From an uncultured Dehalococcoidia bacterium (GTDB lineage Bacteria > Chloroflexota > Dehalococcoidia > Lucifugimonadales > CATOSD01), in NCBI GenBank assembly GCA_951812395.1, contig CATOSD010000002.1, positions 1,106,442-1,170,441 of the forward strand: 64,000 nt of DNA. The letters are read 5' to 3'. This document shows, piece after piece, positions 19,675-60,881 of the stretch. The notes under the pieces are model-generated. The model was given only the letters and a program-made list of their open reading frames with translations. It made no database searches and had not been told where the DNA came from. A program made the translations under genes and the position numbers. The stretch's first letter is position 1, and every line of letters starts with the position of its first letter.

Positions 19675-19703
19675 TTGACCTGCAAGCACATCCGTGCTAT
19701 TAT
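19675..19703 (+). promoter_or_regulatory. Sigma70-like promoter TTGACC-N17-TATTAT (element copy A)
   Basis: TTGACC tgcaagcacatccgtgc TATTAT with an extended -10 TGC. Confidence 0.65.
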
Positions 19704-19905
19704 CTCCATGACGAACCGACACCCCCGTTCGGCAACCACCACCGGCCCGGCAGTGACATCCCGCCGGCTGTCCCACAATTGTCGGAGTTTTCGTTCTTTC
19801 AGTCCAAAGGCCGCTGTAGTGTCCACCGTAGGCGGTCCCGGCGGCAAGTGCTCCCAGCTACGGGACGGAACAAAACGGAACAGTTTGGAACACATTTCGG
19901 TGAAT
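19675..19905 (+). repeat. Dispersed intergenic element, copy A
   Basis: Shares a promoter block, CCGACACCC..TTCGGCA.CCAC and GTTTG.AACACATTTCG..G blocks with copy B; partial blocks with copy C. Confidence 0.6.
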
Positions 19906-19985: not shown

Positions 19986-20064
19986 TTGGCGTGCTTTGCG
20001 GGCAGCGGTTTCTGGCACGCCCGTGAGACTGACGACAGACCAGAAAAGGGATGAGTTCACAACG

Positions 20065-20850
20065 ATGGAAGACACCTCGGCCGCGCCGCGCCAACTCGCC
20101 TCTATAGACTATTTCGGCAAGCGCGCCGGACGCTACAGGGAGAGCCACGGTAACCTGGAGGCACTCGAGCAATTGGTGCGTATGGCAGCGCCGCGAGGCG
20201 ACGAGGTCGTGCTGGACGTGGGAACCGGCCCGGGCCACTTGGCCTGCGCGTTTGCTCCGCACGTGGGCCGCGTGGTCGCGAGCGACGTGACCATGCTGAT
20301 GCTTAGGGAGATTCCGGTCGTGATGCGCGACAGGGACGTCGCCAACGTGTGGCGCGTGGCCGCCGACGCGCAGGCCCTGCCGTTCGTGGACGAACAGTTC
20401 GACATCGTGACCTCGCGGCTGGCGGCTGCTCACTTTCCGGACCATCCGGGTGCGGTGCGGGAGATGGCCCGTGTGTGCCGGACTGGCGGCATCGTACTCG
20501 TTGCCGACAGTATGGGTCCCGAGGACCCGGAGGCGAGGGCATACGTCGATGATCTGGAGTGGTTGCGGGATTCCAGCCACGGCAGCAATCACAGCTTCAA
20601 CGAGTGGAACGACGCCTATCGAGCGGCGGGACTCGAGGTCAGCGAGGTCTACGTCACCAGCGGGCGCCTGAGCTCGATGGAGAACTGGATGGACCGCGCA
20701 GACACTCCGCCCGAAAACCGCGAGCGCATCTACGACCTGATAGAGAACGCCCCGGAAACGCTAAAGCGGCACGTGGACATAGGACGCGATGGCGATGGCA
20801 GGCTGTTCTTCACCACGTCGCAGATCCGCATTCTGGGCCGCAAACGCTAG
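20065..20850 (+). CDS. SAM-dependent class I methyltransferase
   Basis: VLDVGTGPGHLACAFAPHVGRVVASDVT; MARVCRTGGIVLVADS; start trimmed from 19552. Confidence 0.9.
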   Translation: MEDTSAAPRQLASIDYFGKRAGRYRESHGNLEALEQLVRMAAPRGDEVVLDVGTGPGHLACAFAPHVGRVVASDVTMLMLREIPVVMRDRDVANVWRVAADAQALPFVDEQFDIVTSRLAAAHFPDHPGAVREMARVCRTGGIVLVADSMGPEDPEARAYVDDLEWLRDSSHGSNHSFNEWNDAYRAAGLEVSEVYVTSGRLSSMENWMDRADTPPENRERIYDLIENAPETLKRHVDIGRDGDGRLFFTTSQIRILGRKR

Positions 20851-42752: not shown

Positions 42753-44392
42753 TGGTGGAGGGGCCGGCAGATCACGAGCTGTTGACCGAGCTCACCTGCG
42801 AGGAAATCGACCGGCGGGACATCATCGGCAGGATATGGCGGCGCGACCACACCGTCTGGAAGCCCAACCCAGACGAGATTGCGAACAGGCTGGGTTGGCT
42901 GGACGTTTCGGTCGCTATGCGAACGGAACTGCCCTCGCTGCGGAGTTTCGCGGACGAGGTTCGTGCCGACGGCTTTGATAGCGTGCTGCTGCTCGGCATG
43001 GGCGGCAGCAGCTTGGGGCCGGAGGCGCTGGCCCGAACCTTCGGTAGCGCGGACGAGTACCCAGGCTTGCGCGTGTTGGACTCGGTGTTGCCTTCGGAAG
43101 TCCACGCCGCCACGGAGGCCATCAAACCCAGGCGTACGCTGTTCCTCGTCTCTTCCAAGTCCGGCACGACCATTGAGACGAACGCACTCTACCGCCACTT
43201 CAGGCGCGTGTTGGACTCGAGCGTTGGCGCAGACGCCGCGGGCCGCCACTTCGTGGCCATCACCGACCCAGGTACACCGCTGGCCGCGCTCGGAGAGCGG
43301 GAAAGCTTCCGGCGCGTGTTCGTCAACCCTCCCGACATTGGCGGTCGCTACTCGGTGCAATCGCTGTTCGGCCTCGTGCCTGCGGCCCTGATGGGCCACG
43401 ACCTGTACGCCGCTCTCGACGAGGTCGACGCAATGTCCAGGCGCTGCTCGCAATACCGGCCGGCTCGCGACAACCCCGGCGCTGGGCTCGGGGCGGCCAT
43501 CGCCGCCCATGCGGTGCGGGAACACTGCAGGCTGACGCTGCTCATGTCGCCGTCGGTTGCGTCCTTTGCGCCGTGGGCGGAGCAGCTTGTGGCTGAGAGC
43601 CTGGGCAAGGAGGGCAAGGGGATAGTGCCGGTCGTCGACGAGCCGAACGCGGCATCGGCACATCTCAGCGGCGACCGGCTGCTTGTCTATGTGCGGCTGC
43701 ATGGGGATGACAACGCTGCGACGGACGCGGTGGCCGATGCTGCCGCGCGAGACCGCCGGCCGCTCATAACCCTGAATCTTGGCGAGAGGAATGAGCTATG
43801 GGGGGAGTTCTTTCGCTGGGAGTTCGCAACGGCTGTCGCGGGCGCACTGCTCGGCGTGAATCCATTCGACCAGCCGGACGTCGAGGTGTCCAAGCGTATG
43901 GCGACGAGCGCCCTCGACAGAGCGGCCGGCGCGGACGACTCTGCAAATGGCGTATCGCCGGGCACGCTTCTGGCCGATGCGCAGCCGGGGTGCTACCTTG
44001 CCATTCTTGCGTTCGTTCGCCGCTCCGCCGAGCTAGACTCAGCGCTGGCAGAACTGCGCCGCACAGTTGGCGAGACATACCGTGTCCCAACGACTACGGG
44101 CTACGGGCCCCGTTACCTGCACTCCACCGGCCAACTCCACAAGGGAGGTCCGGCCAACGGGCGCTTTCTTCAGCTACTGGAGAAGCCGCTCGCCGATTGC
44201 GCCGGTGAAGTGGACGTCCCGGGCACAGACTACGCTTTCGGCCGGCTGGCGAGGGCGCAGGCCGACGGCGACCTCGGCGCACTGGCGTCGGTGGGCCGGC
44301 CCGTATCGAGGGTGTGCGTCGAGGGCACGGGCGCGGAGGATGTACTGGCTATGGCGGCTTCGCTGCGCCGCCGGGCGGGAGGAACCGCCTAG
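42749..44392 (+). CDS. pgi: Glucose-6-phosphate isomerase
   Basis: LLGMGGSSLGPEALARTFG; FLVSSKSGTTIETNALYRHF; GGRYSVQSLFGLVPAALMG; TTGYGPRYLHSTGQLHKGG. Confidence 0.93.
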   Translation: MMVEGPADHELLTELTCEEIDRRDIIGRIWRRDHTVWKPNPDEIANRLGWLDVSVAMRTELPSLRSFADEVRADGFDSVLLLGMGGSSLGPEALARTFGSADEYPGLRVLDSVLPSEVHAATEAIKPRRTLFLVSSKSGTTIETNALYRHFRRVLDSSVGADAAGRHFVAITDPGTPLAALGERESFRRVFVNPPDIGGRYSVQSLFGLVPAALMGHDLYAALDEVDAMSRRCSQYRPARDNPGAGLGAAIAAHAVREHCRLTLLMSPSVASFAPWAEQLVAESLGKEGKGIVPVVDEPNAASAHLSGDRLLVYVRLHGDDNAATDAVADAAARDRRPLITLNLGERNELWGEFFRWEFATAVAGALLGVNPFDQPDVEVSKRMATSALDRAAGADDSANGVSPGTLLADAQPGCYLAILAFVRRSAELDSALAELRRTVGETYRVPTTTGYGPRYLHSTGQLHKGGPANGRFLQLLEKPLADCAGEVDVPGTDYAFGRLARAQADGDLGALASVGRPVSRVCVEGTGAEDVLAMAASLRRRAGGTA

Positions 44393-44829
44393 TCCAGCGA
44401 GGCCTCCACGCTCAGTTCGACGTTGCCGGACAGGGCCTGCGAGATTGGGCAGCCGTCCTTGGCACCTTCGGCTGCCTGCCGGAAGGCGTCCTCGTCGATG
44501 CCGTCGACCTTCCCCTGAACTGTCAGGGCGCTCGACACGACCTTGAAACCGCCGTCCACGTTGTCGAACGTAACCGTCGCGCTCACTCGCAATTGCTGTG
44601 GCGGCGTGCCCGCCCTGCCGAGCCCGGCCGAGAGCGCCATCGAGAAGCAACTCGCGTGGGCGGCTGCGATCAGCTCTTCCGGGCTGGTGCGCCCGTCCGG
44701 CTGCTCGGTCCGTGCGGGCCAGCTCACGCCGAGGTCGGCGAACGCCTGGCTTGTGGTCGCTGTCACTACACCGCTGCCGGAGGGAAGGTCGCCGGTCCAG
44801 GTGGCGTCGGCTCTTCTTACTGCTGCCAT
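44389..44829 (-). CDS. OsmC family peroxiredoxin
   Basis: RADATWTGDLPSGSGVV...SPEELIAAAHASCFSMALSAGL. Confidence 0.92.
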   Translation of the reverse strand: MAAVRRADATWTGDLPSGSGVVTATTSQAFADLGVSWPARTEQPDGRTSPEELIAAAHASCFSMALSAGLGRAGTPPQQLRVSATVTFDNVDGGFKVVSSALTVQGKVDGIDEDAFRQAAEGAKDGCPISQALSGNVELSVEASLD

Positions 44830-44880: not shown

Positions 44881-45134
44881 ACCGGGGGAACCTCGCGGAA
44901 AGTGTCTCATTTTGTTTCGTACATATCTGGAGGCCGTATCGTCGGGTGTGTCTTGTGTCAGGCAATCGTCGCAGTTTCCGGCTTGCGAGAACCAGAACCG
45001 GGACGCCGGGAGTCGGAATGGGATGGAGTGTCGCACCGGGCCGAGCGCGGCGACTGCCAGGGCTGACTCTGGGGACGGAAAGTTGGTTGTGGTTGGCATG
45101 TAAGCAGAGTAGCACGGATGTGCGAGCGAGTCAA
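44881..45134 (-). repeat. Dispersed intergenic element, copy C (minus orientation)
   Basis: Promoter block TTGACT..GCACATCCGTGCTACTCT and distal block AACAAAATGAGACACTTTCCGCGAGGTTCCCCC match copies A and B; the middle is diverged. Confidence 0.5.
45106..45134 (-). promoter_or_regulatory. Promoter TTGACT-N17-TACTCT in element copy C
   Basis: Minus strand TTGACT cgctcgcacatccgtgc TACTCT. Confidence 0.55.
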
Positions 45135-45271: not shown

Positions 45272-46375
45272 ATGACCGAGGCCTTAAGGCGAACGCCGCT
45301 TTACGATACGCACGTAGAGCTTGGCGGCAGGATGGTGCCATTCTCCGGTTGGGAGATGCCCATCCAGTATGACAGCATTCTTCTCGAAACGAGGCTGGTG
45401 CGCTTCGGTGTCGGCCTGTTCGATGTCTCTCACATGGGGCGAGTCGAGATCAGCGGGCCGGGGGCGGGTCCCCTTCTCAGCAGCGTGCTCAGCGTGAGCG
45501 CCATGGGTCTGCGCGTGGGCACGGCCCGCTACAACGTCATCTGCGACGAACAGGGCGGCATCATCGACGACGGCATCGTGTACCGGAAAGGCGATGAGCA
45601 GTTCCTGGTGATTCCGAACGCGGGCAACCGGGCCGCCGTGCTCGACTGGATCGTGAGCTGGAACAACGGGCCCGAACCGGCGGATATCGTGGACGTGTCC
45701 GACGACTACGCGATGATAGCCTGCCAGGGGCCGGCGGCCGAGTTCATCCTTGAACCCGTGGCTTCGGTTGACCTGTCCAAAATCCGGCCGTTCCGCTACG
45801 CGGACGCACAGCTCGACGGTGTGGACACGATGTTCGCGCGGACCGGCTACACGGGCGAGGACGGTTTCGAGCTTATCCTTCCCAGCGAAAGCGCTGAGCG
45901 CATCTGGTCGCTGCTGATGGACAAGGGAGCCATCGCGGCAGGACTCGGAGCGAGAGACGTGCTGCGCATGGAGGCCGGGCTGCTACTGCACGGGAGCGAC
46001 ATGAGTACGTCGGTGAATCCATACGAGGCAGCGTTGGAGAGATTCGTCCGGCCCAATCGCAGGCGGTACATCGCTGGGGAAGCGCTTCGACGCATACGTG
46101 ACGAGGGCGTCAGCAGGCGTATGGTCGGCTTCAATATGGTGGAGCGAGGCATACCCCGGCACGGTTACGCCATACTGGGCGAGTCGGGACAGATAGGTGA
46201 GGTCACAAGCGGGGGCTATTCGCCAACTCTTGACAGAAGTATCGGCATGGGCTACGTTCAGACCGAGTATTCGAACGAAGGCTCGCGCTTCACAATCGAC
46301 ATCAGAGGGAGGAGCGTAGAGGCCGAGGTGACGGGCCTGCCGTTTTACACTCGGAGGCGGAGAAGCAACTCATGA
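45272..46375 (+). CDS. gcvT: Glycine cleavage system aminomethyltransferase
   Basis: RRTPLYDTHVELGGRMVPFSGWEMPIQYDSI; GLFDVSHMGRVEISG; FARTGYTGEDGFEL. Confidence 0.96.
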   Translation: MTEALRRTPLYDTHVELGGRMVPFSGWEMPIQYDSILLETRLVRFGVGLFDVSHMGRVEISGPGAGPLLSSVLSVSAMGLRVGTARYNVICDEQGGIIDDGIVYRKGDEQFLVIPNAGNRAAVLDWIVSWNNGPEPADIVDVSDDYAMIACQGPAAEFILEPVASVDLSKIRPFRYADAQLDGVDTMFARTGYTGEDGFELILPSESAERIWSLLMDKGAIAAGLGARDVLRMEAGLLLHGSDMSTSVNPYEAALERFVRPNRRRYIAGEALRRIRDEGVSRRMVGFNMVERGIPRHGYAILGESGQIGEVTSGGYSPTLDRSIGMGYVQTEYSNEGSRFTIDIRGRSVEAEVTGLPFYTRRRRSNS

Positions 46376-59120: not shown

Positions 59121-59467
59121 TGGGCCCTCCTCGATAATCGTAATGGTGGCGCGGTCCCGGCCTGATGACTGAGGTCAGCGTCTGGAGTGTCTCGCACAAC
59201 CCGCCCATCCGGACCACTCCCGGCCGCCGCCCGAATCATACTGACCTGTTAATGCACTGTCAACAAGGCCGCGAGCGGCGAGCCACGCGGCATAAATCGA
59301 CGCGAGGATGCTTCTCATAGCCGCGAAGCCTCAGTGTTGCGCATGTCTCAATATGGCCGGCGCCGAGCCTATCTCAGATTGCCAGGTGCGCCCAACACCG
59401 TCACTTCCGCGAACGCGGGAACCTCACGAGGACGGCCCCTGCCCTATCCCAACCCTGTCAACCCCTC

Positions 59468-59497
59468 TTGAACTTAACCGCACAGCCGTGCTATTCT
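59468..59497 (+). promoter_or_regulatory. Promoter TTGAAC-N18-TATTCT in element copy B
   Basis: TTGAAC ttaaccgcacagccgtgc TATTCT. Confidence 0.5.
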
Positions 59498-59750
59498 CTC
59501 TCCATTCCAGACCGACACCCTCATTCGGCAGCCACGAAAACCCCTTCTGCAGGTGGCCTGTCGACCTATCCGCCACTCCTGAAAACTCAAGCCGCCCGTG
59601 CGCCCAGCTATGAGATGTCTGAGAATGTTCCACTTATCACGGCCTTCCTTGCGAAACCCGGCCTCGAACAGCCTCCCGAACGGCGCCGGCCCGCAGAGCT
59701 CCCTGCAACCAAATGCATCAGTTTGCAACACATTTCGCGGTTTCCCCGCC
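59468..59750 (+). repeat. Dispersed intergenic element, copy B
   Basis: Shares blocks with copy A (19675-19905) at both ends. Confidence 0.6.
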
Positions 59751-59862
59751 TACAGACCACCTATGCAGCGTCCTTTACGCCCGCCAGATCGCCACGGAAA
59801 CGGATGTTGAGCGCGAATCTGTCTCAGATCTCCAGGCGGAAAACACGGAGGCCTTGGCCCTT

Positions 59863-59889
59863 GGATTCCCGCTTGCGCGGGAAAGACGA
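59863..59889. repeat. REP-like palindrome TTCCCGC-ttgc-GCGGGAA
   Basis: GGATTCCCGCTTGCGCGGGAAAGACGA; stem at 59866-59883. Confidence 0.55.
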
Positions 59890-60002
59890 TCTCTCGCGCA
59901 CCTACTAATTTGAGACAGGCTCCGGGCGCCCGAAAGTTTGACACGCAGCTTCATACTTCATTAACATGAAGCTAACGGACTTATGGCGAAGGAGGCCGAT
60001 CC

Positions 60003-60881
60003 ATGGAATCCAAAGAGACCAACGAGTCCATAACTATCCTACAGGCTGCGGGCAAGTACGCCGAGCATGTGGCTGCGCGCAACGCCAGGCGGGCTAGCGC
60101 CAAGTCTCGCGCCGCCAAGAGCGAGACTGATACGGTCCCTGCCCCCCGAAACAATACGGAGCTGGACAAGTTTATAAGGTGGTGCAAGCCAGACACGCCC
60201 TTCGCCAAGGTGAAACCCGCGGATATTGGCGCCTACGCTGAAAGGATGGCCGGCAACGGCACCACTCCGCAAGCCGCCGAGCGGCTCCAGATAGTGCGAG
60301 AGTTCCTCACCTACTCTCACAAGAGCGGGTTTACCGACCAGAAGCTCGCTCTGCACCTCCGAATCCGCCGGCCCCGCAACAGCGCGGTGAAGACCGGCAA
60401 CGCGGACAAGCAGGCGCCCAACGAGATCACTCGCGAAGGGTACGAGCAGCTGGCGGAGGAACTGGGTAAGCTGAAGTCCGAACGTACCAAGACGGCTGCC
60501 CAGATACAACGGGCCGCCGCGGACAAGGACGTCCGCGAGAACGCTCCCCTGGAGGCCGCCAGGGAACAGATGGGCCTGGTCGAGTCCCGAATCCGTTCGA
60601 TAGAATCGACCCTCGAGTCCTCGGTTGTAATCGAGGCCAGGACCGGCGGAATTGTCACCACGGTGAGACTTGGAATGCGCGTCCAGGTGCGAGAGTCCAA
60701 GACTAAGCGGGAACAGACCTACATGCTGGTCAGCCGAAGCGAAGCGAACTCGCTCGAGAGAAAGATCTCCGACGTATCTCCGCTCGGCAAGGCGCTCATC
60801 GGCCAGAAGAAGGGCCAAACGGTCGAGGTGCAGACGCCCCGAGGCAAGTCTCACTATTCGATCATCAACATAACGGCCTAG
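60003..60881 (+). CDS. Tyrosine-recombinase core-binding (SAM-like) domain fused to GreA/GreB-like transcription elongation factor
   Basis: N-term ELDKFIRWCKPDTPFAKVKPADIGAYAERMAGN...REFLTYSHKSGF; C-term ITREGYEQLAEELGKLKSERTKTAAQIQRAAADKDVRENAPLEAAREQMGLVESRIRSIESTL...LGKALIGQKKGQTVEVQTPRGKSHYSIINI. Confidence 0.85.
   Translation: MESKETNESITILQAAGKYAEHVAARNARRASAKSRAAKSETDTVPAPRNNTELDKFIRWCKPDTPFAKVKPADIGAYAERMAGNGTTPQAAERLQIVREFLTYSHKSGFTDQKLALHLRIRRPRNSAVKTGNADKQAPNEITREGYEQLAEELGKLKSERTKTAAQIQRAAADKDVRENAPLEAAREQMGLVESRIRSIESTLESSVVIEARTGGIVTTVRLGMRVQVRESKTKREQTYMLVSRSEANSLERKISDVSPLGKALIGQKKGQTVEVQTPRGKSHYSIINITA

Follow-up and report, generated by a model that had tools for sequence, protein, structure and literature searches.

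Dispersed elements with a LexA-type promoter and the pac-like start of a small-terminase-like gene in an uncultured Dehalococcoidia genome

The window, which is the whole 64-kb stretch of DNA analyzed (G000:C2:1106442-1170441), belongs to a genome of 3.69 Mb in 2 contigs and contains three homologous elements, A, B, and C (loci L022, L024, and L023). A sequence-only reading had placed their 5' blocks at 19675-19703 (+), 59468-59497 (+), and 45134-45106 (-), each in a divergent intergenic region, and both the positions and the divergent settings are confirmed. That reading had also given each copy one 3' block, which is indeed present in A, B, and C, except that B has two, at 59604 and 59704. 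It missed a LexA-type palindrome within the promoter and the fact that the 3' block begins a TerS-like gene and holds a pac-like array. The parts and neighbors of the three copies are as follows.

19675..19680, plus strand: A, -35 hexamer TTGACC (TTGA conserved over 63 aligned copies)
19686..19697, plus strand: A, LexA-type palindrome GCACATCCGTGC in the promoter spacer, of the box class found before relatives' lexA
19698..19703, plus strand: A, -10 hexamer TATTAT
19704..19853, plus strand: A, leader of ~150 nt, roughly 65-85% similar to other copies
19854..19899, plus strand: A, relic TerS-gene start CCAGCTACGG, with ACG replacing ATG
19866, 19876, 19886, plus strand: A, 10-bp-phased repeat units
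20023..20850, plus strand: methyltransferase (Methyltransf_11) gene downstream of A, ATG at ~20065
59365..59390, plus strand: B, left terminal inverted repeat remnant GAGCCTATCTCAGATTGCCAGGTGCG
59468..59473, plus strand: B, -35 hexamer TTGAAC
59480..59491, plus strand: B, LexA-type palindrome GCACAGCCGTGC
59492..59497, plus strand: B, -10 hexamer TATTCT
59604..59640, plus strand: B, first 3' block CCAGCTATGAGATG...AGAATGTTCCAC
59704..59738, plus strand: B, second 3' block, with phased TGCAAC/TGCATC/TGCAAC at 59704, 59714, and 59724
59815..59922, no strand assigned: small MITE of ~107 bp adjoining B, with terminal repeats as in the 680-bp class
60003..60881, plus strand: gene of 293 codons downstream of B, labeled a recombinase/GreA fusion in the sequence-only reading
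45129..45134, minus strand: C, -35 hexamer TTGACT
45112..45123, minus strand: C, LexA-type palindrome GCACATCCGTGC
45106..45111, minus strand: C, -10 hexamer TACTCT
44896..44930, minus strand: C, 3' block CCAGATATGTACGAAACAAAATGAGACACTTTCC, with two units 10 bp apart (44919/44909)
44389..44829, minus strand: OsmC-like protein gene downstream of C
45272..46375, plus strand: gcvT-like gene, divergent from C

Evidence that these elements belong to a large dispersed family is apparent at several levels. The 5' block pattern matches three times in the window and not once in 100 dinucleotide shuffles of it, and an 18-base core, GCACANCCGTGCTANTNT, allowing at most one mismatch, occurs 71 times genome-wide against once for its reversed control. 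Sixty-three aligned copies gave a 49-position sequence model of the 5' block, which finds 136 matches in the genome at E<=0.1 and ~130 at E<=1e-3, in keeping with the earlier prediction of many copies. These counts, together with the homology of leaders among copies, refute chance resemblance of intergenic promoters as an explanation. A recognizable 3' block of the general form CCAGCTACGA, followed by (GAACAGAATG)n-like repeats, is present in nearly all of the more than 100 copies read, at a fairly constant distance from the 5' block, ~150 nt in the commonest class. Copies fall into three classes by leader, with A, B, and C in class I. The distance from the -10 hexamer to the 3' block is 149-155 nt in many copies of classes I and III and longer in class II; the class I unit runs from about -25 to +285, counted from the box, and the units of classes II and III are ~600 bp. 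The shared unit is ~300 bp in older copies and ~680 bp in the class with terminal repeats. Outside this genome, the exact 5' core was found in only three genomes among 98 of the order (97 relatives and this one, which is among the three); one of the two relatives' loci, L076, is a true relative with a GGAACA array of its own, and the other, L077, probably is not. Copy A had zero matches among 50,697 phage records, the exact core was not found in IMG/VR, and searches of phage and viral contigs gave one weak TerS relative.

The 5' block is a sigma-70-type promoter, in agreement with the original description of the copies as promoter bearing. Its consensus is CTTGA-N7/8-GCACATCCGTGCTAYTCT, with -35 and -10 hexamers 17-18 bp apart and between them a palindrome that fits the LexA-type box G-N-AC-N4-GT-N-C. 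Comparison to the lexA genes of relatives is informative, as GNACNNNNGTNC lies within 200 bp upstream of lexA in 18 of 23 loci (shuffled mean, 0.95), in boxes such as GAACATACGTTC, GAACATGCGTTC, GTACATATGTAC, GCACACATGTGC, and similar sequences. The lexA promoter of G007, CTTGACACTTCCCGCACACATGTGCTACTTCT, has the layout of the element and the GCAC-N4-GTGC form, and the same form precedes a DinB/IMS-family gene of G006 (GCACATGCGTGC); a dinB-like gene of G077 has a GAACGCATGGGC / AGAACGCATGGGC promoter followed by a repeat array. Spacing of the half sites and overlap with the promoter are as in the Gram-positive LexA box, GAAC-N4-GTTC, to which the GAACATACGTTC-like boxes of relatives' lexA also conform in type (PMC3323433); the boxes of this genome differ in their half sites, GCAC and GTGC, and in residing on a mobile element. 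Predicted control of the element promoters by LexA is well supported by these sequence comparisons. It is not universal for the TerS-like family, as a box precedes 1 of 10 TerS-like genes in f19 and 1 of 7 in f4/f41. Some 0.45 kb upstream of lexA in this genome lies a complete element with GCACATACGTGC. This copy is a MITE flanked by a perfect 9-bp duplication, GTCAATTCA, and may have inserted there by chance; a clean box was not found in the proximal promoter of this lexA. The possibility that the element is an N-terminal coding part starting at CATGAC after the -10 hexamer was rejected, with ATG present in ~20 of 70 copies and reading frames unconserved.

The nature of the 3' block became clear from coding copies. 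Four genes of one HTH family occur in this genome, all four begin inside an element, and the 3' block CCAGCTATGAGGTGGAACAGAATGGAACAAAACGGAACACATTTCGCC corresponds to the beginning of MRWNRMEQNGTHFAEDLTQRQLAALPHLL in these TerS-like genes; most copies are without a terS open reading frame (ORF), and the start codon ATG of the TerS genes is replaced in most by ACG. A scan of 20 homologues assigned every one to PHROG 2538 (terminase small subunit), and Pfam HTH_Tnp_1_2 scores 24.8 bits on the TerS-like protein, below its cutoff of 27.9. The predicted structure (pLDDT 87.6) consists of an HTH and two long helices. Its closest solved fold is phBC6A51 (2ao9), with a probability of 1.00 but an E value of 0.02; the small terminases of NV1, PaP3, and Sf6 come next. 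A PDB sequence search with the TerS alignment gave no credible match. Of 147 genomes of the order, 18 have TerS-like genes, 1-8 in each, mostly with a second small gene, ORF2, behind them. This ORF2, of ~90-125 codons, is conserved (L361:5923-6189, L363:2613-2915, L371:6628-6936, and L368:5551-5847) and had zero matches in Pfam, PHROG, and NCBIfam. Gene order in G022 is a TerS-ORF2-TerL operon; in this genome each of the four TerS genes, like TerL, has a site of its own, and one copy, L059, heads TerL (PHROG_2, E 4e-35) and portal (PHROG_2662, E 1e-80) genes. A tandem duplication at L359:5072-12666 takes in an IMP-dehydrogenase-like gene as well as the 3' portion of the portal gene that adjoins TerL.

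Within the start of the TerS gene, the array consists of TG-NNN-CA direct repeats every 10 bp. Pairs of units with equal triplets, counted over own and foreign loci, number 45 at offset 10, and no other offset between 7 and 15 has more than 7, in counts that are not independent, as related genomes are counted separately. Units of one array share their core triplet, which varies from array to array (GAA, CAA, TTA, TCC, AGC, GCA, and others). Direct repeats that cover the promoter and the first part of terS reproduce the layout of the pac site of SPP1, whose repeats likewise run across the promoters into terS, and TerS rings place neighboring HTH motifs about one turn of B-DNA apart (PMC4737164). 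Differences from SPP1 are the LexA-type box in the promoter, the variable core triplet of units set exactly 10 bp apart, and the dispersal of ~130 copies, mostly without terS, in a host chromosome. Anatomically, the element would be a pac-plus-terS control region, with an array to which TerS may bind. Conservation of the array is not clearly above that of the rest of the MITE, and it is fairly even along the MITE class, as expected if copies are mostly neutral. A related observation comes from L105 (G022), where a long, very regular, pac-like tandem array of GTGTCGCATAA-like units with an 11-bp period lies in the leader, ~200 bp upstream of a TerS-like gene. Inverse units of the array motif were found in leaders only at G022 and f19 loci and in 0 of 11 copies of this genome, on which count an RNA switch formed by pairing of leader and array was rejected. 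A CsrA-type small-RNA sponge with GGA motifs was dropped once the array was recognized as the start of the TerS gene.

Dissemination of the element is clearest in class II, with ~18 near-identical copies (L327-L344) of 660-680 bp that end in 25-bp terminal inverted repeats, GAGCCTGTTTCAGATTACCAGGCGC and its inverse. Target duplications of 9 bp, matching at 8-9 of 9 bases, flank 13 of 23 two-ended units (shuffled mean, 0.7; maximum, 4), a sample in which L336 and L337 may be one locus at two contig starts. These two, at the starts of contigs C1 and C2, are 99.5% identical over the 2.2 kb compared, probably because contig ends overlap in the assembly or an end was duplicated. The same ends, with a perfect 9-bp duplication, bound L347, a 2-kb unit with a decayed PF13701 (IS1380-type) transposase, of which no intact copy was identified. 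On the strength of its terminal repeats, its target duplications, and the ends common to L347, class II is a MITE. It resembles IS1380-type MITEs in being short and ORF-less, with 25-bp repeats and 9-bp duplications, and differs from them in its interior, a control region of phage type whose promoter is LexA-type. Terminal repeats are absent from the older copies A and C; B has the left remnant only and a target duplication of 7/9. The proposal of a MITE-like mobile promoter therefore holds for class II and not, by these marks, for A and C, which are older copies without terminal repeats, and a mobile promoter is plausible as the history of A to C. The TerS operons themselves are another matter, as MITE ends bounding them were looked for at the four loci of this genome and not found, and the idea that they are MITE bounded was rejected. 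A second, smaller MITE of 107-140 bp with the terminal repeats of the 680-bp class is common in the genome (window 59815-59922; L356). Separately, a PF13701 (IS1380-type) insertion sequence, in two variants of 97-98% identity, is present ~14 bp upstream of the -35 hexamer in at least nine copies (L006, L009, L027, L029, L037, L042, L048, L049, and L056, with ends in L316 and L324), and this site is a repeated insertion target.

Where copies lie relative to genes was assessed with a simple codon-usage gene caller. The next gene is targeted by 86 of 100 copies, where intergenic length in the window predicts ~55% (binomial P ~2e-11), an orientation that is due mainly to the strong presence of copies in divergent gaps. 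Tandem gaps give 16:10 toward the gene, which is not significant, and convergent gaps hold one copy. Gene starts are typically 50-150 bp past the element, with a median distance from box to start of 408-448 bp. Most of the downstream genes tested are ordinary, encoding trigger factor, an ArgC-like semialdehyde dehydrogenase, signal peptidase, and OMP decarboxylase; a few are related to DNA, encoding a RecQ-like helicase (DEAD domain), a UDG-family protein, and a ComM-like protein.

Among relatives, genomes of f38 contain ORF-less promoter-plus-array copies with GAACGCATGTCC-type boxes. The promoter that heads TerS-like genes in f19, GTGACATCYGCCCGTTGYGCGG, is distinct from the LexA box type and also heads a lone portal gene, a protease-capsid operon, and a ComM-like gene. 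This lone portal has a conserved chromosomal context, with a separate protease-capsid operon (L364:7263-8435, L366:5712-6884, and L365:9577-12006); it is syntenic, with 85.5% identity between G105 and G095, and the operon is far away. Together they look like a scattered, domesticated phage gene set. Flanking genes also connect the families. Copy C and a TerS-like operon of G022 are alike in position, the latter divergent from gcvT-gcvH-gcvP as C is from gcvT, and the gcvT link between L371 and L023 amounts to 58% identity over 222 amino acids (E 1.5e-176). The comM gene of G117 is preceded by a promoter of a related class and is shared with L044 of this genome; L060 and the TerS gene of G137 adjoin a common aminotransferase-like gene; and L062 and G105 have a common FtsY-like gene near the element or the capsid operon. 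Three copies of this genome have neighbors matching TerS-bearing loci elsewhere (L023-L371 at C and gcvT, L060-L100, and L059-L105). Overall, flank comparison gave 41 matches, 9 of them TerS itself and 8 from one transporter family, against 6 and 7 in controls, an excess between families that is suggestive rather than strict.

We favor, at a probability of about 0.6, the reading that A, B, and C are old copies of a TerS control region, a LexA-type promoter with a pac-like start of terS, that has been multiplied and mostly stripped of its gene. The original module would have consisted of a sigma-70 promoter with a LexA-type operator, a leader of ~150-250 nt, and the first codons of terS with their array. 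It would then have multiplied to ~130 copies in this genome, mostly without the terS ORF, the largest class spreading as the 680-bp MITE. LexA bound to the box would block the promoter until DNA damage, and a derepressed copy would transcribe into whatever lies ~100 bp past its end, be it terS, terL, comM, or an ordinary gene. TerS subunits may bind the 10-bp-phased units, for autoregulation, initiation of packaging, or both, in functional copies. Copies without the ORF are for the most part probably relics, or promoters that hitch-hike with no or modest effect.

How much the copies matter today can be read in opposite ways. Old copies could be decayed leaders of an expanded TerS-like family and younger ones MITEs that contain such a leader, with most regulating nothing at present, a possibility we hold tentatively. 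The fairly even conservation along the MITE class, ACG in place of the TerS start codon in most copies, and the three copies with neighbors like those of TerS-bearing loci are all consistent with neutral decay. Against this, -35, box, and -10 are intact in old copies despite leaders diverged to ~65%, a contrast biased by selection in that copies were detected via the 5' block, and the near absence of convergent placements and the 86 of 100 copies facing a gene also argue for more than decay. Selection of copies for placing downstream genes under LexA, an exapted SOS regulon, would fit the short distance from element to gene, the RecQ-like, UDG-family, and ComM-like genes, which suit DNA metabolism, and the related promoter class before comM in G117. 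Such a regulon is rather unlikely, given that the downstream genes tested are mostly ordinary and that the orientation bias in tandem gaps is not significant.

Another proposal of the sequence-only reading, that the two conserved blocks mark a family of regulatory or small RNAs, has in its favor a promoter, a leader of near-constant length in many copies, and a conserved 3' block. It is very improbable and finds no support in these elements, as the 3' block is the beginning of TerS reading frames, Rfam has no match in the window at gathering cutoffs, complementarity of leader and array is absent from this genome's copies (0 of 11), and leaders differ among classes in length and sequence. A bolder possibility is that the ~130 pac-like arrays, in MITEs and older copies together, are mobile packaging start sites for a scattered, SOS-induced system resembling gene transfer agents (GTAs). 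SOS-induced TerS, TerL, portal, and capsid would then start packaging of host DNA at many points of the chromosome, with competence-type genes such as comM on the same switch. We regard this as distinctly unlikely, a hypothesis with partial genomic support.

The likeness to GTAs lies in packaging genes residing in a host chromosome and, in f19, in portal and protease-capsid genes that stand apart under one promoter type. A precedent for a LexA-like regulator is the Caulobacter GTA under the LexA-like repressor RogA (PMC9632790), from which f19 differs in that its promoter is not of the LexA box type. In contrast to GTAs and their particles that move host DNA, the candidate system here is a set of genes, of which TerS, TerL, and portal were found in this genome, the last at a locus disturbed by duplication. 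Wiring of mobile DNA to LexA also has parallels in the ISCR transposase and integron integrases, both under SOS control (PMC13393415). In those cases it is the mobility gene that LexA controls; the element differs in carrying its LexA-type promoter outward.

Spread of a regulator's operator by transposable elements is well known in eukaryotes. In bacteria, a MITE with a LexA-type promoter at ~130 places, one of them upstream of lexA, would clearly exemplify a regulon that transposition has seeded. How small terminases recognize DNA is poorly understood, and the 10-bp arrays, with core triplets uniform inside each array and variable from one to another, offer a direct handle on this recognition. 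The chromosomes of Dehalococcoidia keep genes for TerS, TerL, portal, and capsid, and the link of the element to these points to a packaging system of the Chloroflexota not yet described. Our comparisons suggest that one mobile switch serves both the damage response and a domesticated phage packaging system.
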